Virus record (IMG/VR): IMGVR_UViG_3300044846_001790
Location: 1-22,271 of that record
DNA from: a virus
DNA: 22,271 bases
Strand: one strand, 5' to 3'
Positions 1 to 20,890 of this stretch are shown here, piece by piece (position 1 is the first letter of the stretch; every line of letters begins with the position of its first letter). Both the position numbers and the translations under genes were made by a program. Under the pieces are notes generated by a model. That model did no database searches. It was not told the origin of the DNA and worked only from the letters and a program-made list of their open reading frames with translations.

Positions 1-594
1 AGAGCAAGAACATTGCCTGCCAGCATGGTTTCTAAAATGTGGAATGAAGTGCAGACTAACCTTGGAGCTTTTCAAATATTTTTTGGAAACAGTTTTCATA
101 TCATTGATAACTCAGAAAAGTCAGACTATCAATCACAAATTAATACTGTATATAAAAGAATTCTTGGTTGGTCTAGAAAACTTCCTACTAATTCAATGGC
201 TTCTTCATGGATTAAAAGCCAAAGAAAAGGAATGAACGAAGATATTACACAAGTACAAGTAAATGATTTAGAAAAATTTGCTGATAAACTACTTAACAAA
301 TATGACATTGATATCGAATTCACTAGACATTTTGTTGATCGTTTAAATGACCCGCGCAACACTCCAGATATTAAAATTTCCGAATTGCAAAAACTGTTTA
401 AGAAGATAGAAAAAACTAAAGGTAAATCTTTAAAGTCGCTTGGGCCAGACATTGAAGTAGTTTTAAAAGATATGGAAACAGATTTAAATCTTCCTGTTAT
501 TATTCGCTATAATAATGGAGAATTTGAAGTCACTCACAAAACAATTATGCGTAAAAAGAATTTCGCTACTACTAACCAGAAGGTGGAGATATGA
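1..594 (+). CDS. Conserved T4-like phage protein, 3' part only
   Basis: The frame is open to the left edge, so the true start lies outside the window and only the last 197 codons are seen. The C-terminal half contains the stretches FTRHFVDRLNDPRN and LNLPVIIRYNNGEFEV and ends with TIMRKKNFATTNQK. From memory, this type of C-terminus recurs in proteins of marine T4-like phages, near structural genes, with no assigned function. The first half is helical and lacks a motif I recognise. The stop overlaps the next start (ATGA-like, 591-594), so it is probably co-transcribed with the candidate internal head proteins that follow. A structural or head-related role is inferred from position only. Confidence 0.75.
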   Translation, partial: RARTLPASMVSKMWNEVQTNLGAFQIFFGNSFHIIDNSEKSDYQSQINTVYKRILGWSRKLPTNSMASSWIKSQRKGMNEDITQVQVNDLEKFADKLLNKYDIDIEFTRHFVDRLNDPRNTPDIKISELQKLFKKIEKTKGKSLKSLGPDIEVVLKDMETDLNLPVIIRYNNGEFEVTHKTIMRKKNFATTNQKVEI

Positions 595-1481
595 TTAGGT
601 TTAAAGAGTTTCACGAAGCATGCTGGGACACTCACAAGCAAATTGGCATGAAGAAAAAAGGCAATCGCATGGTGCCTGATTGTGTTCCAAAGAATGAAGA
701 AACCGAATTAGAAGAAACTTGGTCGAAGACCGGTAAAGAAGCTACTCATATACCAACAGGTCAAAAAACTTACGAATACGCCAAGCTTGATAAAGAAGGC
801 AGACCTACTGGTAAGAGACATTATCGCAATGCACAAGGTAAGGTAATGGGAGAATCTGTAGAAGAGTCTAAAGATTTTAGCAAATATATTATGAAGGCAA
901 CTAAAACTGAACCTAAAATAGTTCGCAAAACCAATCCGGCCGGAAGAACTACTGACCACGTCGAATACGAAGTTCACGGTACACTATCTTCACATAAGAG
1001 AACTTTTAAATCTAAAAAAGAAGCTGAAGCATATTTCAATACTGTTAAAGAAGATGTTGAACTTGACGAAGCTATTAAGCTTAACACAAAAGTTAAGATC
1101 CACCACCCAGGTAAGTCATATCATGGTGAAGTTGGACATGTAGGCGAGATTAGACATGGATTATTTAAAGGCGCGCCAAAGAAATATACAGTCGATTATG
1201 GTGATCGTAAGTCTATTCAATTAGATAAAGCAAATATAAGATTGCACAAAGAAGAAGCAGATTTAGAAGAAGGTGCTGGCGGTTCTGAAACTTGGGAAGC
1301 TGGTTATAAACGTCGTGTTGTTAAAACAACTAGTGCTGACCATAAAGAAAAAGGTTACAACTGGCGTATTAAAGGCAAAGAACGTCCAGAAATTTCTATT
1401 AAACTATATAAAGAAAAGCCATCACAAGCCGAGTTTAATAACCAAATGAGAAGAGTTGCCGGTCACGAATTTGGAGGTTAA
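591..1481 (+). CDS. Modular lysine-rich protein, candidate internal head protein
   Basis: A 296-residue protein, very rich in Lys and Glu, with no recognisable enzyme domain. It begins MIRFKEFHEA, like the amphipathic capsid-targeting leader of T4 internal proteins. A Cys-containing block follows (residues 11-34: CWDTHKQIGMKKKG then VPDCVPK), which I know from memory as recurrent in marine T4-like phages. Acidic linkers rich in L-x-E lie at residues 35-44, 88-95, 153-161 (KEDVELDEA) and 220-228. Between the last two is a beta-rich segment (162-220, TKVKIHHPGK... KKYTVDYGDR) that looks like a small KOW/SH3-like module. A similar module occurs in the protein at 1854-3473. I infer a packaged, possibly protease-processed DNA-associated protein; no function is proven. 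Confidence 0.85.
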   Translation: MIRFKEFHEACWDTHKQIGMKKKGNRMVPDCVPKNEETELEETWSKTGKEATHIPTGQKTYEYAKLDKEGRPTGKRHYRNAQGKVMGESVEESKDFSKYIMKATKTEPKIVRKTNPAGRTTDHVEYEVHGTLSSHKRTFKSKKEAEAYFNTVKEDVELDEAIKLNTKVKIHHPGKSYHGEVGHVGEIRHGLFKGAPKKYTVDYGDRKSIQLDKANIRLHKEEADLEEGAGGSETWEAGYKRRVVKTTSADHKEKGYNWRIKGKERPEISIKLYKEKPSQAEFNNQMRRVAGHEFGG

Positions 1482-1482
1482 T

Positions 1483-1803
1483 GTGAAAACATTTAGACAA
1501 CTAATAGAAGAAATATACGAAGAAAAAGACTCTCGCCTTGCTAATGCTGGTGTAGAAGGTTTTAATAAAGCTAAAAGAACACCGGGCCATCCAACAAAAA
1601 GTCATATTGTTGTAGCAAAAGATGGTGACAAAATTAAAACTATTCGCTTTGGTGAACAAGGTGCTTCTACTGCTGGCGATCCTAAACCAGGTGAATCAGC
1701 CAAGATGAAAGCAAAGCGCAAATCTTTTAAAGCCCGTCACGGTAAAAATATTGCCAAGGGTAAGATGAGTGCTGCTTATTGGGCAGATAAAGAAAAGTGG
1801 TAA
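1483..1803 (+). CDS. Small basic conserved phage protein with internal-protein-like leader
   Basis: I chose the GTG at 1483 because GGAGG (1473-1477) sits five bases upstream and gives the leader MKTFRQLIEE; an in-frame ATG at 1456 lies inside the previous gene and has no such site. The product is 106 residues and strongly basic. The body is a domain known from many phage genomes without assigned function: KAKRTPGHPTKSHIV, then IRFGEQGAS, KRKSFKARHGKNI and SAAYWADKEKW. The N-terminus closely resembles MKTYQEFIAE, the capsid-targeting leader of T4 internal proteins that is cut after Glu. A DNA-binding protein packaged in the head is a fair inference, but the sequence alone does not show it. 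Confidence 0.85.
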   Translation: MKTFRQLIEEIYEEKDSRLANAGVEGFNKAKRTPGHPTKSHIVVAKDGDKIKTIRFGEQGASTAGDPKPGESAKMKAKRKSFKARHGKNIAKGKMSAAYWADKEKW

Positions 1804-1809
1804 TCTTTT

Positions 1810-1817
1810 TATAAATA
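1810..1817 (+). promoter_or_regulatory. T4-type late promoter
   Basis: A perfect TATAAATA lies in the 50-base gap before the gene at 1854. In T4 this octamer is the only strong element of late promoters, and transcription starts about 13 bases after its first T, here near 1823. That leaves a leader of about 30 bases. Confidence 0.6.
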
Positions 1818-1853
1818 TCGTTAGTAAAACAATAATAAACACGAAAGCGTAAA

Positions 1854-3473
1854 ATGCAAAGTTTTAAGAAGTATATCAGTGATATGCCAGAATTGGACGA
1901 AGGTAAAGGCAAACCTGGTCTATGGGCTAATATTCACGCTAAAAGAAAGCGTGGAGAGCGTCCGGCTAAACCAGGCGAAGAAGGTTATCCTAAGACTCTT
2001 GATATCGAAGAAAGCGGCAAGGGTTATCAACCCGGATGGATGTTAAAGAAAGATCCAGAGCTTGCTAAAAAACTTAAAGATAAGATTGATTTAGCTAAAA
2101 AGCGTCAAGCATCTTATGGCAACCCAGCGGCTGGTAAATCCGTTAAAGAAAATAAAGATGAACACGATATTAACTCTTTACAAAAACATTTTGGACCAGC
2201 TGTCGCATATGACGCAGCAAGTCATGGTCCAGCAATGATGAAGAGAAAAGATATTTCTGGAAAATCACACACTTTAATAAAACAATCTAATGGAAAATAT
2301 AAATCTGTTAAAGAAGATGTTGAGCAACTAGATGAAGCAGTTGATCCTAGTGAAATTGCTGGTAATCCAAAAGCTTACGGCGTAGATACTGTAAAAAAAG
2401 CATACTACCACAAAAAAGCCTCTACTTCAGACAAAGAATCTTTAGCGCGCCATCTAGATAGATATCATGGTCATAAAGAATGGCGCAAACCGCTTGTAAA
2501 AGAAGAAACTGAGCTGCAAGAATTATCAAAAGAAACTTTAGGTTCGTATAAGCATAAGGCTGAACTATCAATTCCTAAAGATGATCGCGAATATGCTAAT
2601 CGCTCAAAAGGTATTGATAAAGCAGAAAAGAAACTTAAAGAATCTGCTATCAAAGTTGGCGATACTGTTGTTTATAACAAAAATAAAACTGCCGAAACAG
2701 TCGGTAAAGTACACAAGATTGAAGCTAACGACTATATTTTACACCACACTAGAACAAATACTTATCACAGAGTTCCAAAGAAAGGCTCTGAACTGGCAGA
2801 ATCAGTAGAACAACTTGACGAGCTTTCACCAAACCTATTGCACAGATATGTTAAGAAAGCTACCGGCAACATGGGTATGCATGCCGTAGATCATGGCAAA
2901 TACGGTGATCAGCAAAAAGACAAGAAGAGTCTTAATAAAGCTATTAAGCGTTCAGATGGTATTGCTTCTGCTTCAGGCCGTATGGCTGATAAAGCTAATA
3001 AGAACGAAGAGTTTACACCTGCTGAAAAAGCCGCATTTCTTGCAGCTGCTAATAAAAAAGCATCACTAGATTATTGGAAGACACACGCAGAACTAAAGAA
3101 GAACGATCCTAGAGTATCAAAGACTCCTAAGAAAGAAAGTGTTGATCTTGACGAATCAGAAATTAATGACTTAGCTGCTCAATACATTAACGAAAACAAT
3201 ATTACTCTAGAACAACTAGAGAATATGACTGAAGCAGAATTAAACGAGTTAATCGGTGCTGCTATTGGCGGTGCTTTTAAACTTGGTGCGAAGGCTGCGG
3301 TTGGAGCTACTCGTTTAGCCGGTCGAGCAATTAACAGAATGACCACTTCTGGAAGAGCAGATGCTGCTGAAAAGAAAGCATCTACTTTAGAAAAAAAGAA
3401 TGCAGACCGTGAGAGAATCAGAGCTGCCCAGGATCGTTTGCGTAAAGCAAAAGAAGCCGCAAGTAAAAGATAA
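1854..3473 (+). CDS. Large modular lysine-rich protein, candidate processed internal head protein
   Basis: 539 residues built from small basic modules separated by acidic linkers. The leader is MQSFKKYISDMPELDEG, again like a T4 capsid-targeting sequence ending in an L-x-E site. A GKPGLWANIHAKRKRG block (19-34), common in marine phages, comes next. Linkers lie at residues 49-54, 152-162 (VKEDVEQLDEA), 215-225 (VKEETELQELS), 315-325 (AESVEQLDELS) and 428-437. Residues 224-264 and 323-382 are two versions of one helical module (ELSxxxLxxY). Residues 266-311 form a KOW/SH3-like module related to one in the gene at 591-1481. The C-terminus (465-495) is Ala/Gly-rich and hydrophobic, followed by a charged helix. 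No enzyme motif is visible. Processing by a prohead protease is inferred. Confidence 0.85.
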   Translation: MQSFKKYISDMPELDEGKGKPGLWANIHAKRKRGERPAKPGEEGYPKTLDIEESGKGYQPGWMLKKDPELAKKLKDKIDLAKKRQASYGNPAAGKSVKENKDEHDINSLQKHFGPAVAYDAASHGPAMMKRKDISGKSHTLIKQSNGKYKSVKEDVEQLDEAVDPSEIAGNPKAYGVDTVKKAYYHKKASTSDKESLARHLDRYHGHKEWRKPLVKEETELQELSKETLGSYKHKAELSIPKDDREYANRSKGIDKAEKKLKESAIKVGDTVVYNKNKTAETVGKVHKIEANDYILHHTRTNTYHRVPKKGSELAESVEQLDELSPNLLHRYVKKATGNMGMHAVDHGKYGDQQKDKKSLNKAIKRSDGIASASGRMADKANKNEEFTPAEKAAFLAAANKKASLDYWKTHAELKKNDPRVSKTPKKESVDLDESEINDLAAQYINENNITLEQLENMTEAELNELIGAAIGGAFKLGAKAAVGATRLAGRAINRMTTSGRADAAEKKASTLEKKNADRERIRAAQDRLRKAKEAASKR

Positions 3474-3476
3474 ATA
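3469..3476 (+). promoter_or_regulatory. Probable late promoter (GATAAATA)
   Basis: GATAAATA differs from the T4 late consensus at the first base only. It contains the TAA stop of the preceding gene and lies 40 bases before the ATG at 3509, which has its own AAAGGAG ribosome binding site. Confidence 0.45.
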
Positions 3477-3508
3477 GAATAATAAAAAGCCTTTAAAGGA
3501 GAAATCAA

Positions 3509-3826
3509 ATGGCACTATGGGGAAAAACAGACGCTTTAGCTAGCGTACCAAAATGGTTAGAAGACGATGCAAATAATACTAACAAATCACACGATATTGA
3601 TAACGCGGTATTTGTTGACTTGACAGAAGCTGGTGTAGCAACTAACCGTGCAAAGGGTCTTAAGACTCCGGGTTGGAATCTATATCATACGTATACAGAT
3701 GCTTTAGGTAATACTCGTCATAAAACAGAATCACTTGTAGTAATGAAAGTATCGGCTGCTGATGCAGGCGATGACGGTATTGGAAGTAATACCGAAATTG
3801 AAGATACTACTGTAGCAGACAGTTAA
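3509..3826 (+). CDS. Conserved phage protein, probably virion-associated
   Basis: 105 residues with a good ribosome binding site (AAAGGAG, 3495-3501). The N-terminus MALWGKTDALASVPKWL, the central AVFVDLTEAGVATNRAKGL and GWNLYHTYTDALGNTRHK, and the acidic C-terminal tail match a small protein I remember from marine T4-like phages, usually annotated as hypothetical. It has no transmembrane segment, signal peptide or catalytic motif. The isolated late-type promoter and strong Shine-Dalgarno site suggest high late expression, which would suit a structural protein. That role is inferred from context, not shown. Confidence 0.85.
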   Translation: MALWGKTDALASVPKWLEDDANNTNKSHDIDNAVFVDLTEAGVATNRAKGLKTPGWNLYHTYTDALGNTRHKTESLVVMKVSAADAGDDGIGSNTEIEDTTVADS

Positions 3827-5954: not shown

Positions 5955-6482
5955 ATGCCAACGTTTGTTTATGTAGGAATACTTTTGGTAGCCTTGGGTG
6001 GAGGTATGGCAGCATACTATAAATCCACCCAAGCTAAAATTGAAACCTTGACAGAATACAATGCTACGTTAACGGCAAATGTTAACCAGTTAGAAGAAGT
6101 AAATAGATCTAACGTAGATGCTATTGCTAGAATAAAAGCAGATTTTGAACGTAAAAGACAAGAATACGATAAAGCGCAAGAAAGCTTTGGCGAAATACGT
6201 GCCCAAAATAGTCAGCTTAAAGAAAAATTAGGTAAGCACGATCTTGGTGTATTAGCCGCTGCTAAACCCGGTCTAGTAGAAAAAATTATTAACACTGCGA
6301 CAGAAAAAGCATTTCGATGTTTTGAATTAGAGTCTGGCGCACCATTGACACAAAATGAGAGGACTGCAAAAGATGCTAAATCGTTTAACAGTGCTTGTAC
6401 TTGGGTTTATGATGATCTTGTCGCTCGCGGCGTGCTCGTCAAAGCCGATAGTACCACCAGCCAAAATAGTAACAAAAACTGA
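5955..6482 (+). CDS. Inner-membrane spanin subunit (Rz-like)
   Basis: 175 residues. An N-terminal hydrophobic segment (about residues 4-22, FVYVGILLVALGGGMAAYY) without a cleavage site is followed by a long charged, heptad-like coiled coil (about 25-95) and a C-terminal part with two cysteines. This is the usual plan of an i-spanin: anchored in the inner membrane, with the periplasmic coiled coil reaching the outer-membrane partner. The partner gene starts inside its 3' end in another frame, as in lambda Rz/Rz1. Together they would fuse inner and outer membranes in the last step of lysis. The ribosome binding site is weak. The assignment rests on architecture and context rather than recognised sequence identity. 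Confidence 0.82.
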   Translation: MPTFVYVGILLVALGGGMAAYYKSTQAKIETLTEYNATLTANVNQLEEVNRSNVDAIARIKADFERKRQEYDKAQESFGEIRAQNSQLKEKLGKHDLGVLAAAKPGLVEKIINTATEKAFRCFELESGAPLTQNERTAKDAKSFNSACTWVYDDLVARGVLVKADSTTSQNSNKN

Positions 6483-6756
6483 GTACGTTACTCCAACTGC
6501 GCCGATAGTACCAAAACCGGATGTACTCTCTTTAAGAGACATCAAGTTTATTATTATTACGCCTGAAAACGCTGCAGAAGTTTTTGCAAAATTAAAAGAC
6601 GAAAAGGTTTTATTTGCATTAACTGCAAAAGGATATGAAGATACTGCTTTAAATTTAAGTGACATTAGAGCATACATGAGACAACAAAACAGAGTTATAA
6701 TTTTATACCAGGACGCGTTTAAACCAGTTAATCCAGAGCCAGTTAAACCAAATTAA
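6373..6756 (+). CDS. Outer-membrane spanin lipoprotein (Rz1-like)
   Basis: 127 residues from the ATG at 6373, preferred because GAGAGGA (6357-6363) lies nine bases upstream; an in-frame ATG at 6355 would add six residues and has no binding site. A signal peptide (MLNRLTVLVLGFMMILSLAAC) ends in the lipobox LAAC, so Cys21 should be lipid-modified. A short proline-rich stretch follows (KPIVPPAK, TPTAPIVPKP), as in Rz1 proteins. The C-terminal 70 residues (IIITPENAAEVF, LFALTAKGYEDTALNL) form an extra small domain that lambda Rz1 lacks. The gene overlaps the i-spanin by 110 bases in a different frame. It should link the outer membrane to the i-spanin. Confidence 0.85.
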   Translation: MLNRLTVLVLGFMMILSLAACSSKPIVPPAKIVTKTEYVTPTAPIVPKPDVLSLRDIKFIIITPENAAEVFAKLKDEKVLFALTAKGYEDTALNLSDIRAYMRQQNRVIILYQDAFKPVNPEPVKPN

Positions 6757-16350: not shown

Positions 16351-17007
16351 ATGCTAGAAACAATTTGCGATGTAATGCTAGATGCTTACAAGCGCAACTG
16401 GATTACGAGTCGTGATGGTAATGTAAGTATACGCCATCACGACCGTGATCATTTTTATATTACGCCAAGTGGTGTGCGTAAGCAAACATTACAGCCTGAT
16501 CAGTTTAAAAAGATCAGCATTGACAAAAGCATACATAGTGGTTATGGATTAGCCGCATTTAATTACAGTTGGCGAGATCTTCCTTACACTGATATTAGTT
16601 CTAATCTAAAGCCAAGTGGAGAAATTCCTTTACACTTTGGTTTGCAAAAACAAATGGGCCAACACAAAGATGATGTTCGTGTAGTAGTTCACGTGCATCC
16701 TACTTATTGTATTGCTGCAATGCATGCTGGAATTGATCTTAGTACCATTAGTAATGCATTCCCTGAACTTAATCGCTATACTAAAGTCGCACCCAATGTT
16801 GGTGATGTACCTCCCATTAGTCAAGAACTCGCTGATAGATGTCACGAGAATCTTCAACTCGATGATCGCGGCACCATCGCGTATGACATCGTAGGCATCA
16901 AAGGACATGGTGTAGTTGCCATTGACACGAGCCCGTGGAGAGCGTACGAGCATATTGAACGTCTTGAGCACATTTGTAAAATTGTACTTGCGTCAGGAAA
17001 AATATGA
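16351..17007 (+). CDS. Class II aldolase/adducin-family protein
   Basis: 218 residues with AAAGGA upstream. It follows the L-fuculose/L-ribulose-phosphate aldolase plan: SRDGNVSIR (20-28), YITPSGVRK (36-44), the catalytic-type Glu91 in [11 protein letters not shown], the zinc ligands His114 and His116 in [11 protein letters not shown] and His186 in GIKGHGVVA. All three histidines are present, so a metal-dependent enzyme is likely. Family members cleave or isomerise sugar phosphates; some act as methylthioribulose-1-phosphate dehydratase. The substrate cannot be decided. Its stop overlaps the start of the ErpA-like gene (17004-17007, ATGA), so the two are translationally coupled. Confidence 0.9.
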
Positions 17008-17327
17008 TTAATATTACTGACGCTGCAGCAATCAAGATTGCCGACATTGTCGCAGAAGAAAATAATCCCAAAGTTAAACTACGAACCTTTGTTCAAGGTG
17101 GTGGATGTAGCGGATTTAGTTATGGGTTTACTTTAGATGAAGAACAAAATGAAGACGACTTTGTAATAGAAAAATCCGGAATTGTAATTTTGGTTGACTC
17201 TATGAGTATGCAATATTTGCAAGGTGCAATCATAGACTATAAAGATGACCTTAGTGGTAGTCAGTTTGTAATCAATAATCCAAATGCACAATCATCTTGT
17301 GGATGCGGTAGTAGTTTTTCAGTATAA
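17004..17327 (+). CDS. A-type iron-sulphur carrier, ErpA-like
   Basis: 107 residues. The three cluster-binding cysteines of the A-type carrier family are present: Cys35 in [13 protein letters not shown], and Cys99 and Cys101 in [11 protein letters not shown]. The [25 protein letters not shown] and [14 protein letters not shown] blocks match the ErpA subgroup more closely than IscA. Such proteins receive Fe-S clusters from the assembly scaffold and pass them to target enzymes. Host targets are unknown; class Ia ribonucleotide reductase is not an Fe-S enzyme. It is coupled to the aldolase upstream and followed after 21 bases by an IscA-like gene. Confidence 0.94.
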
Positions 17328-17348
17328 GAAAATAAAGTATGCTAACAC

Positions 17349-17675
17349 ATGATTACTATAACTGATCTTGCTTATCAGAAAATTAAAAGAAGTCTAACTA
17401 AACGCGGTAATGGTGTTGGTATTAGGATTGCAGTAAGGACAACAGGATGTTCAGGACTTGCTTACGTATTAGAATATGTAGATAAACTTGAATGTGAAGT
17501 TGGTATAACAAATTATGCGCAGCCAGACTTTGCAGTGTTAGTAAGTACTAAAGACGAACCATACTTGAACGGTTTAACGATGGATTGGGTTCGTAACGGA
17601 CTCAATGAAGGCTTTGATTTTAAAAACCCAAATGAGCGTGACCGATGTGGTTGCGGAGAAAGTTTTAGAGTATAA
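17349..17675 (+). CDS. A-type iron-sulphur carrier, IscA-like
   Basis: 108 residues, about the length of bacterial IscA. VRTTGCSGLAYVLEYVD (Cys34) and GLNEGFDFKNPNERDRCGCGESF split across the C-terminus (Cys100, Cys102) match IscA rather than ErpA. All three ligand cysteines are kept, so the protein should bind a cluster or iron. Gene order and the different subgroup show that this is not a simple recent duplication of the preceding gene. The ribosome binding site is weak; coupling to the upstream gene is possible. Confidence 0.94.
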   Translation: MITITDLAYQKIKRSLTKRGNGVGIRIAVRTTGCSGLAYVLEYVDKLECEVGITNYAQPDFAVLVSTKDEPYLNGLTMDWVRNGLNEGFDFKNPNERDRCGCGESFRV

Positions 17676-18742: not shown

Positions 18743-19927
18743 ATGGGTGGGAATAAAAGAGTAGCAGTTATTGGTGCTGGTATTGCTGGGATTACTACAG
18801 CATATTACCTTGCTAAAGAAGGATATACTGTGCGTGTATACGAACAAGAACCATATCCAGCAATGCGCACTAGTTTTGCTAATGGTGGACAAGTTTCAGT
18901 GAGTAATAGTGAAGTTTGGACGACATGGAGCAATGTTAAAAAAGGCATCGGCTGGATGTTTAAAAAAGATGCTCCATTGCTAATTAGGCCTAAACTAGAT
19001 CTAGCTCAATGGAAGTGGATGGCAAAATTTTTGTATCATACTGCAATAGGTTCATATGAAGAAAATACAAAAGAAACTATTAGGCTGGGTCTTGAAGCTG
19101 ACAAACTTTATAAAGAGATTATTGCAGAAGAAGGTCTTGCGTTCGATCAAACACAATGCGGCATTCTGCATTTTTATAAAAGCGCTAAATACTTTGAAAG
19201 CGCAAAAGTTGTGCAATCATTATATCAAAGCAGCGGATCAGCGTGGGATATTCTAGGACCTATGCAAACAAAATCTTTAGATAAAGCGTTAATAGATATT
19301 AAAGGTGTTGTCGGTGGTGCTTGGACACACCATGATTGGACTGGAGATATTCACAAATTCTGTTATCAGTTGTCTAAAGTATTAGAAAAAGAATATGACG
19401 TAATGTTTCATTACAATTGCAAGCCAGCAACTCTGAATTATCTTTTAACAGATTATGACGCTATAGTTATAGCCGCTGGTGTAGGTTCTGAAAAATTAGC
19501 AAATACCATTGGTGATAGTCTAGGCATTTATCCAGTTAAAGGATATTCAATTACAATTAATAACGTTGATCCAAGATATTTACCTAGAGTAAGTTTGCTT
19601 GATGATGAAGCTAAGATTGTAACTAGCTCACTTGGAAACCGTTTTAGAGTAGCAGGTACTGCAGAACTTACTGGCGAAAACTATGATATTCGTAGAGATC
19701 GCATTCAGCCTTTGCTAGACTGGGTACATAAAAACTTTCCAAACATTAATACTCGCGATTATACGCAATGGGCATGTTTGCGACCAATGACACCTAATAT
19801 GATGCCAATTGTTAAACAGAGCAAAAGAAACGATAAAGTATTTTATCATGCTGGTCATGGTCATTTGGGTTGGACACTAAGTCCTGCTACTGCTAAACAA
19901 GTAGTTGAGTTAATTAAAAATGCTTAA
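18743..19927 (+). CDS. D-amino-acid dehydrogenase-like FAD oxidoreductase (DadA family)
   Basis: 394 residues, a little shorter than bacterial DadA (about 415-435), with an AAAGGAAA site. An N-terminal dinucleotide-binding fold has VIGAGIAGITTAYYLA (9-24) and the FAD-ribose acid at VYEQE (33-37). TSFANGGQVSVS (43-54) is the DadA-type signature. The C-terminal FAD motifs are LRPMTPNMMPIV and YHAGHGHLGWTLSPATA. It should oxidise D-amino acids or a related amine to the keto acid and ammonia, passing electrons to a quinone at the membrane. The substrate in infected cells is unknown. Its stop overlaps the next gene by eight bases. Confidence 0.92.
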   Translation: MGGNKRVAVIGAGIAGITTAYYLAKEGYTVRVYEQEPYPAMRTSFANGGQVSVSNSEVWTTWSNVKKGIGWMFKKDAPLLIRPKLDLAQWKWMAKFLYHTAIGSYEENTKETIRLGLEADKLYKEIIAEEGLAFDQTQCGILHFYKSAKYFESAKVVQSLYQSSGSAWDILGPMQTKSLDKALIDIKGVVGGAWTHHDWTGDIHKFCYQLSKVLEKEYDVMFHYNCKPATLNYLLTDYDAIVIAAGVGSEKLANTIGDSLGIYPVKGYSITINNVDPRYLPRVSLLDDEAKIVTSSLGNRFRVAGTAELTGENYDIRRDRIQPLLDWVHKNFPNINTRDYTQWACLRPMTPNMMPIVKQSKRNDKVFYHAGHGHLGWTLSPATAKQVVELIKNA

Positions 19928-20405
19928 TATGTTTGGTGAAATGCTGCCAGGATTAGAAATAATTCAGCATGTAAAGCATAAAGATAGTCGTGGAGACTTT
20001 TGCGAAGCATGGAAACTTGGCAATGATAGTATGCGAGGTCCAACACACAACGGCTGGCCATTTCGCCAATTAAACATAGCAACATCTTCTAAAAATGTTC
20101 TAAGAGGAATGCACAGGCAAAATCAATTTAAATGTGTTATGCCGGTTTACGGCAAAATATTCGATGTAGCATTAGAACCAGAATCAGGTAAATGGTTTGG
20201 TATAGAATTAGATGAAACTTGCGCTTTACTAATACCACCACAATACGCTCACGGATATCTAGTTATGTCAGACAAAACTGTTGTACAATATATAGTTGAT
20301 AGACCCTACAATAAAGCAGAAGAAGAAAATTTTAATTGGAACAAATACGGGATTGAGTGGCCTATTCAAGGTACTCCAATCCTGTCAGTTAAGGATACAG
20401 AATGA
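19920..20405 (+). CDS. dTDP-4-dehydrorhamnose 3,5-epimerase-like protein (RmlC family)
   Basis: 161 residues, shorter than typical RmlC (about 180); an in-frame start at 19929 is also possible. Cupin-type blocks match the family: SRGDFCEAW, RQLNIATSSKNVLRGMHRQ with His65, QFKCVMPVYGKIFDVALE with Lys71, and IPPQYAHGYLVMS with His111. The WNKYGIEWP segment (140-148) corresponds to a WNDP-like site in classical RmlC, and Lys142 seems to stand where the catalytic Asp partner is expected; by eye this is uncertain. It may be a sugar 3-epimerase or 3,4-ketoisomerase relative. No other dTDP-rhamnose genes are present. The stop overlaps the next start (ATGA). Confidence 0.88.
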   Translation: MLNMFGEMLPGLEIIQHVKHKDSRGDFCEAWKLGNDSMRGPTHNGWPFRQLNIATSSKNVLRGMHRQNQFKCVMPVYGKIFDVALEPESGKWFGIELDETCALLIPPQYAHGYLVMSDKTVVQYIVDRPYNKAEEENFNWNKYGIEWPIQGTPILSVKDTE

Positions 20406-20890
20406 AAATAGGATTTAATTGTAGCAGTTTTGATCTGCTGCATGCAGGTCACGTGACTATGCTAAAGATGGAAAAACAATTATGCGATTATTTAATTGTT
20501 GCTTTACAAATCGACCCAACAATGGATCGTCCTGGAATTAAAAATAAACCAGTACAAAGCGCATATGAAAGATATGTGCAATTACAAGCTTGTAAATATG
20601 TTGATGAAATACTTGTTTATGAAACTGAATATGATCTATTGCAATTACTACAAACACAAACAATTCATATTCGTTTTTTAAGTGACGAATATCTAAATAG
20701 AGATTTTACTGGTAAGCAATGGTGTATGAATAATGGTATTGAATTACATTACCATAAACGTCAACACGATTATAGTTCAAGCGAACTTAGAGCTCGTACT
20801 GCAGAATTGGAAAATTCTAAAAAATCAAACTCTTCTAAAGGACCAGACATTCCTCAGTACAGCCCCGAATTAATAAGAGGTAATAAATAA
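20402..20890 (+). CDS. Cytidylyltransferase, glycerol-3-phosphate type (TagD-like)
   Basis: 162 residues. The nucleotidyltransferase HxGH motif is in FDLLHAGHVTML (His14, His17). KPVQSAYERYVQLQACKYVDEIL (split at 49-60 and 61-71) is the TagD-type second block, and YSSSELRAR (124-132) corresponds to the RTxGISTT-like catalytic end. It should transfer CMP from CTP to a phosphorylated alcohol, giving an activated precursor for a surface or lipid polymer. The last 25 residues (SKKSNSSKGPDIPQ...) are an extra low-complexity tail absent from usual TagD. The start overlaps the epimerase stop and its own stop overlaps the next start (TAATG). Confidence 0.9.
   Translation: MKIGFNCSSFDLLHAGHVTMLKMEKQLCDYLIVALQIDPTMDRPGIKNKPVQSAYERYVQLQACKYVDEILVYETEYDLLQLLQTQTIHIRFLSDEYLNRDFTGKQWCMNNGIELHYHKRQHDYSSSELRARTAELENSKKSNSSKGPDIPQYSPELIRGNK

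Follow-up and report, generated by a model that had tools for sequence, protein, structure and literature searches.

Genes with T4-type capsid-targeting leaders form a variable locus for candidate virion cargo in marine and freshwater T4-like phages

The window analysed here is a stretch of 22,271 nucleotides of viral DNA (IMG/VR record IMGVR_UViG_3300044846_001790, positions 1 to 22,271). The products of three of its genes, named hereafter by their first positions 591, 1483 and 1854, are likely packaged cargo. There is good support for their predicted packaging through a capsid-targeting leader of the T4 type: the leader is constrained in relatives, is an add-on to otherwise leaderless families, belongs to a group in which all five long relatives have an S77 protease, and is carried by proteins of relatives detected in virions by mass spectrometry. 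The locus as a whole is quite probably a variable cargo cassette whose products would be targeted to the capsid in the T4 manner, cut by a gp21-type protease and delivered with the DNA. T4-like phages rank with the most abundant aquatic viruses, and knowledge of their injected non-DNA cargo comes mainly from T4 on Escherichia coli.

Leader-bearing genes of the window

In the T4 record, ipII and ipIII start with MKTYQEFIAE/A (a slash marks a cut throughout), which confirms the leader form used in a sequence-only reading of the window. The T4 protease gp21 cuts after L/I-x-E; residues 4 and 7 of the leader govern targeting and residues 8 and 10 processing, and Asp at position 10 permits targeting and blocks cutting (PMC9026906). 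Leaders of this form on three adjacent genes with very basic bodies had been proposed. The frames and starts were confirmed for all three (Table 1), gene 1483 beginning one base past the stop of gene 591. The bodies proved as basic as claimed: net charges are +13, +12 and +24 and whole-protein isoelectric points (pI) 9.4, 10.0 and 9.5 for genes 591, 1483 and 1854, respectively. Most predicted pieces have a pI of 8-11.5; one small piece is near neutral and one is an acidic spacer.

The leader of gene 1483 fits the T4 pattern at positions 4, 7, 8 and 10. In gene 1854, positions 4, 7 and 8 fit and position 10 is Asp; the LDE at residues 14-16 is predicted to offer a cut site instead. The leader of gene 591 is one residue shorter than the canonical form (E at 9, F at P3).

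Pfam and PHROG searches of the three products gave no function. None of the Pfam or PHROG families that carry a T4 internal-protein annotation matched the window bodies, and no catalogued polyvalent-protein Pfam domain (ArdC-N, ART, MuF and others) was found in the three products. AlphaFold modelling of the gene 1483 product with 76 relatives gave a poor model (predicted local distance difference test, pLDDT, 56).

Table 1. Features of the leader locus in the window (L numbers are handles of compared sequences; aa, amino acids)
Position	Strand	Feature	Basis or remark
1-594	+	P-loop (zeta-toxin/AAA_33-like) kinase gene, 3' part	Full gene L004:3710-4741, start MISFKQYTQINE/GVNDPAIFKAVFLAGGPGSGKS
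591-1481	+	Leader-bearing modular basic protein	ATG, 296 aa, start MIRFKEFHEA; overlaps stop of preceding gene
591-617	+	Leader MIRFKEFHE/, putative cut	Same module in relatives preceded by MKSFKKFVKE/ACWTGYK, MKRFKQYLDE/DCWSGYK
618-716	+	Module CWDTHKQIGMKKKGNRMVPDCVP, end ETELEE/, putative cut	PHROG 9737/38880/727 matches
717-1070	+	Module, end KEDVELDE/, predicted internal cut	Acidic LxE in gene 591: 1 vs 0.04 expected
1071-1271	+	Module, end EEADLEE/, predicted internal cut	PHROG 26930 match over residues 147-225
1272-1478	+	Module GSETWEAGYKRRVV...AGHEFGG	Directly after leader in other phages
1483-1803	+	Gene 1483: leader MKTFRQLIEE/ and PHROG 7595 basic module	GTG, 106 aa; PHROG 7595 3.1e-40
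1854-3473	+	Candidate cargo polyprotein, leader and about seven pieces	ATG, 539 aa, start MQSFKKYISDMPELDE
1854-1901	+	Leader MQSFKKYISDMPELDE/, predicted LDE cut after residue 16	Sequence; T4 leader mutants (PMC9026906)
1902-2012	+	Module GLWANIHAKRKR..., end TLDIEE/	tblastn: cyanophage matches across residues 1-57
2013-2336	+	Module, end EDVEQLDE/	Residues 49-99 occur alone in L019-L024
2337-2522	+	Module AVDPSEIAGNPKAYG..., end EETELQE/	Alone in L007-L012; L010: EEVELDE/AVDPSEVAGN
2523-2822	+	Module LSKETLGSYKHKA..., end ESVEQLDE/	Acidic LxE site
2823-3155	+	Module LSPNLLHRYVKKA..., end ESVDLDE/	Acidic LxE site
3156-3248	+	Acidic spacer, end AELNE/	Charge -8
3249-3470	+	C-terminal basic piece	Charge +12, pI 11.5
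3509-3826	+	Conserved head-protein gene (PHROG 613), right end of cargo locus	PHROG 613 5.6e-21

Distribution and constraint of the leader

Related loci (80) were found via the conserved PHROG 613 head gene. A search for the leader on other genes had been suggested, and it was found there in varied families: 48/249 genes upstream of the head gene carried it vs 2/361 downstream, and internal Met positions matched in 10 of 1,894 cases (0.5%). The leader-bearing set, 66 non-redundant matches of which a few were off-target, was highly diverse. Carriers included NMNAT-like, zeta-type kinase, HD_4 (SpoT-like), RimK ATP-grasp, HAD phosphatase and DUF6267 proteins.

For DUF6267, the comparison covered 60 relatives, whose bodies share 54-74% identity with that of the first. 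E10 was present in 60/60, position 8 was I/L/V in 60/60, position 7 F/Y in 53/60 and position 4 F/L/Y in 58/60; positions 3, 6 and 9 were variable. Since the constraint falls on the positions that govern targeting and processing in T4, the DUF6267 leader appears to be selected, and this constraint is the strongest sign of selection on the leader. In the AlphaFold model of DUF6267 (pLDDT 84) the first 15 residues are disordered, and comparison with PDB folds gave no significant match.

The leader could also be a chance likeness or a compositional habit of the lineage, carried by ordinary cytoplasmic proteins, as the motif is short and K/F-rich and matches a thymidylate synthase by chance. The invariant E10 with position-specific constraint in 60 relatives, the upstream-downstream contrast and the virion detection of leader proteins (below) make this very improbable, and it is already largely refuted.

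Several leader carriers were recorded separately. The DUF6267 proteins (L247:9802-11031, L248-L327) have a near-perfect T4 leader, an invariant KWDG and the motifs EGFV and VKIV; as a lead only, these motifs point to a ligase-like nucleotidyltransferase. The HD_4 (SpoT/MESH1-like) hydrolases at L015:4721-5278 and L079:1233-1793 are candidate packaged alarmone hydrolases. The RimK-like ATP-grasp protein at L071:223-1671 has a C-terminal Zn-protease-like domain. In Agrobacterium phage Atu_ph07 (L154, 4587-9191), consecutive genes start with MRWEQLTE, MRWEQLNE and MKWNDLNEA and have YRGM motifs; they are possibly ADP-ribosyltransferases with another leader type, and one also holds a GVNDKHIFKAIF kinase module.

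The leader as an add-on

Podoviruses and siphoviruses widely encode the body of gene 1483 (PHROG 7595). All 58 resolved homologues on contigs without clear T4-like context lacked the leader and started at the body, as did the six named phages CRP-1, S-CBS2, ICBM2, SIO1, HMO-2011 and S-EIVl (6/6, ..KKDPRLARAGV). Five further homologues, with at least 2 matches to the T4-like reference set, were also leaderless; in one of them (L167) the body lies within a larger protein. In T4-like relatives, MKTFKQFLEE or MKSFKQFLEE sits exactly ahead of the same body. Judged from these starts, the leader is an add-on to protein families that are leaderless in other phage types.

Wider locus in the same phage

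IMG/VR contig 3300042563_002444 equals window positions 1-3564 (zero mismatches over 3,564 bp); it is the same phage and extends it upstream. The order there is a gp41-like helicase, a 265-aa protein starting MKSFKDFIGE, a DUF6267 protein starting MLSFKSYLVE (3.3e-113), a 436-aa protein, glycosyltransferase- or methyltransferase-like genes, a 911-aa NMNAT/cytidylyltransferase protein with the variant start LKGFKEFDPSKYIDTEPTIEE/A, the MISFKQYTQINE kinase (AAA_33 2.5e-10, Zeta_toxin 1e-8), genes 591, 1483 and 1854, and the PHROG 613 gene. The 265-aa protein (L247:9005-9802; YSDVLV...WIEVK) had no Pfam match and was assigned by eye as a putative PD-(D/E)xK-like nuclease. A PDB sequence search with the putative nuclease, DUF6267 and the kinase gave nothing usable.

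In the joined 40.4 kb, the T4-position pattern was matched by 5/12 genes inside the span vs 1/48 outside (p=0.0008). The kinase leader fits another pattern, giving six leader genes in the span. The lone outside match, thymidylate synthase, was judged to be due to chance. The proposed three-gene locus therefore stands as to leaders on all three genes and was drawn too small: it includes enzymes and a fourth leader gene at 1-594.

Leader proteins in virions of relatives

The strict pattern used for the marine loci skips cyanophage leaders with D after F4 and has 1 match in S-CREM2; cyanophages were therefore scanned with the T4-position pattern. In S-CREM2, 52 virion proteins were reported among 219 genes (PMC10665884). 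All four tight-leader genes are on that list (4/4, p=0.003; 3.5e-4 with named structural proteins excluded): gp6 (annotated SAM hydrolase), gp13, gp14 (kinase) and gp154 (NMNAT/cytidylyltransferase, MKNFSSFLTE). These virion enzymes were left unexplained by the authors (PMC10665884). In S-SCSM1, the NMNAT (MKSFLQFLKE/A) is a virion protein and its locus adjoins gp61 (PMC9602691). Five neighbouring products of this equivalent locus are virion proteins too, and so is the product at the PHROG 613 head-gene position (record 92158-92691, likewise with a MALWG start). S-SM1 virions contain the T4-GC190 cytidylyltransferase (PMC3037559). The leader was also found on the NMNAT homologues of P-SSM2, S-CRM01 and S-N03. 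The suggestion that the leader marks a packaged set is supported by leader-bearing relatives in the published S-CREM2 proteome and only in part by S-SCSM1 (1/2).

Two further virion proteins have leader-like stretches at other places. S-CREM2 gp12 (L155:4705-7314), doubtfully annotated as Cas9, has RFASFMAEAA near the N-terminus, a possible displaced leader. A 69-aa virion protein of S-SCSM1 (L334:5627-5836) has the leader-like KKRTFKEFLEYIE at its C-terminus.

Internal LxE sites

Acidic sites were counted with the pattern [VIL][EDQ]{1,2}[LIV]xE, and expectations were taken from shuffled sequences. The gene 1854 product has 4 such sites (0.07 expected). In 63 leader proteins 38 were seen vs 2.9 expected, and in 310 control proteins 10 vs 15.9. 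Counting of plain [LI]xE was discarded as uninformative, as it was enriched in control genes too; the acidic form alone is specific.

The stretches that come directly behind a leader were located inside other proteins as well. Directly after [LIVM]xE lay 37 of 90 such places (46 within one residue) vs 19 of 1,001 control stretches from the same proteins, counts made optimistic by kinship among the loci. Examples are MKSFKQYLEE/KLKVSDGLGAWI vs ESVELEE/KLKVSDGLGAWI and ESVELSE/KLKVSDGLGAWI; MKSFKQFVVE/GAVAVSTVEK vs ESVELDE/GAVAVSNVEK; MIRFKKFISE/GVNDPSIFKAIF vs LELIE/GINDPGIFKAVF; and, for the module at 1272-1478, MKSFKEFISE/GSETWEAG vs internal VEIDE/, DIEE/ and DLEE/GSETWEAG. This equivalence was seen for about eight different modules. 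Because modules follow a leader or an internal LxE alike, the two would be interchangeable joints, as a single protease acting on both would lead one to expect. The equivalence points indirectly to gp21-cleaved cargo polyproteins, and cutting at leaders and internal sites is considered probable.

The products could instead be packaged with the multi-module proteins left uncut, the acidic LDE stretches being flexible linkers or recombination joints. The internal cuts are predictions from sequence, domains are often separated by long acidic linkers, and leaderless modular relatives occur in cyanophages. Mere linkers would not account for the residue after Glu being the first post-leader residue elsewhere, nor for a site that, beyond being acidic, keeps to L/I/V-x-E, the rule of gp21 (PMC9026906). 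This alternative is thus regarded as unlikely.

Prohead protease and head genes

An LxE-specific prohead protease had been named as a check. No S77 protease gene is present on the 22-kb fragment, and a gp21-type (S77) protease is encoded in 5/5 relatives longer than 110 kb, the 18 shorter contigs being uninformative. Scaffold and capsid proteins adjoin it in these five, and the capsid proteins have LLQE/T, LLSE/T or MLSE/A close to the expected cut. In several of them, a product encoded between portal and protease starts similarly.

Such starts leave room for core or scaffold-like proteins of the gp67/gp68 type, which would be targeted to the core, cut to peptides, mostly expelled before packaging and without a role in the host. 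T4 core proteins are broken down to numerous fragments, which exit the head (PMC9026906), and genes at the gp67/gp68 position have similar starts. The pieces studied here are mostly basic rather than acidic, leaders occur on enzymes, these enzymes persist in finished virions, and the gene set is highly variable among relatives; a core function is distinctly unlikely.

Comparison with known systems

The T4 internal proteins Ip1-3 are injected and inhibit GmrSD-type restriction; the leader is all they have in common (PMC12373910). IPI, IPII and IPIII share with the present set the leader length, residues 4/7/8/10, the L/I-x-E cut rule (a predicted one here), basic bodies, gene variability between relatives and, in the long relatives, the S77 protease. 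The window bodies, however, are not detectably related to them, leaders are borne here also by enzymes and by multi-module proteins that have several internal LxE sites, and the carriers are marine and freshwater T4-like phages.

The cargo might serve for DNA packing, neutralising charge in the head, rather than as effectors. Most pieces are basic (pI up to 11.5), and T4 internal proteins are basic and touch DNA by their lysines (PMC3012670). The kinase, NMNAT-like, HD, RimK and DUF6267 cargo has no packing role, however, and each of T4 Ip1-3 is a restriction inhibitor (PMC12373910), which leaves this explanation rather unlikely.

T4 Alt is an injected head enzyme (ADP-ribosyltransferase) of a T4-like phage, processed by gp21 (PMC9026906); the enzyme classes found here are different (NMNAT-like, kinase, HD, RimK, DUF6267). 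The cyanophage cytidylyltransferase/NMNAT (T4-GC190; S-SM1, S-SCSM1, S-CREM2) is homologous cargo of an equivalent locus near gp61 and occurs in virions. Its entry route was left unexplained (PMC3037559, PMC9602691, PMC10665884), whereas a leader is seen here on five copies (S-SCSM1, S-CREM2, P-SSM2, S-CRM01, S-N03). Polyvalent proteins of phages and conjugative elements (PMC5512222) are also regarded as multi-domain cargo that is packaged and delivered; the present proteins differ in their small modules, in the protease-type joints between these and in belonging to phages whose core and protease are of the T4 type.

T-even phages are already known to have variable internal proteins that share a leader, and cyanophages to carry NMNAT in the virion. 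In the open-access literature searched, no paper was found on such leaders in cyanophages or pelagiphages, nor on DUF6267. Two things are new as far as searched: the occurrence of the leader on marine and freshwater cargo, enzymes and DUF6267 among it, and the proposed polyprotein layout, in which leader and internal joints can replace each other.

Other genes of the window

At 5955-6482 and 6355-6756, an Rz-like spanin gene is overlapped by a lipoprotein frame that lies in a different phase, and the two are likely a nested spanin pair. The following were assigned by eye: two tandem IscA-like iron-sulphur carrier genes behind an aldolase-like gene (17004-17675); an apparent lipoprotein with prohibitin/SPFH-like sequence, unusual for a phage (12080-12880); and a row of D-amino-acid-dehydrogenase-like, sugar epimerase-like and nucleotidyltransferase-like genes (18743-20890).

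Proposed route and its significance

A capsid-targeting leader of 10-16 residues would steer each product into the prohead core, where a gp21-type S77 protease would cut after L/I-x-E and remove the leader. The same protease would also cut at V-E-(Q)-L-D-E, the acidic internal site; the products of 1854, 591 and the upstream NMNAT fusion would thus be polyproteins that yield several small, mostly basic pieces. These, with the NMNAT-like protein, P-loop kinase, DUF6267 protein and putative nuclease, would stay in the head with the packaged DNA, probably accompany it into the host and act there before phage gene expression.

Several points weigh against this route. The DUF6267 copies of P-HM2 and S-CAM1 have no leader, the leader of gene 591 is short and that of gene 1854 has Asp10. 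The related loci are not independent, which makes p-values optimistic. The S-CREM2 test comprised four genes with a pattern refined during analysis, a looser pattern gave 4/5 (p=0.012), and carry-over in the CsCl preparations could not be excluded by the authors (PMC10665884). Genome-wide, the S-SCSM1 result was not significant (p=0.32), and the remaining virion proteins of its locus have other starts and no tight leader, so the leader is not the sole way in. Cutting is a sequence-level prediction, plain LxE is not specifically enriched, and the protease gene lies outside the fragment.

By analogy with T4 Ip1-3 and Alt, injection of the cargo into the host is considered fairly likely; early host take-over and counter-defence are each possible and proposed tentatively, and the basic modules of the window may serve counter-defence, DNA packing or early take-over. 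The wider proposal, slightly favoured, is that many aquatic T4-like phages pack protease-cleaved polyproteins of interchangeable modules and enzymes with V-E-L-D-E joints, one core-targeted chain giving several injected effectors and modules being shuffled between stand-alone leader genes and chains.

With the leader as a guide, hypothetical genes can be read as predicted virion cargo, and virion enzymes that have long been puzzling, the cyanophage NMNAT for example, gain a possible explanation. The locus would be a hot spot for early-acting, possibly anti-defence, proteins, and the polyprotein layout, if true, would allow many small proteins to be delivered under one tag.

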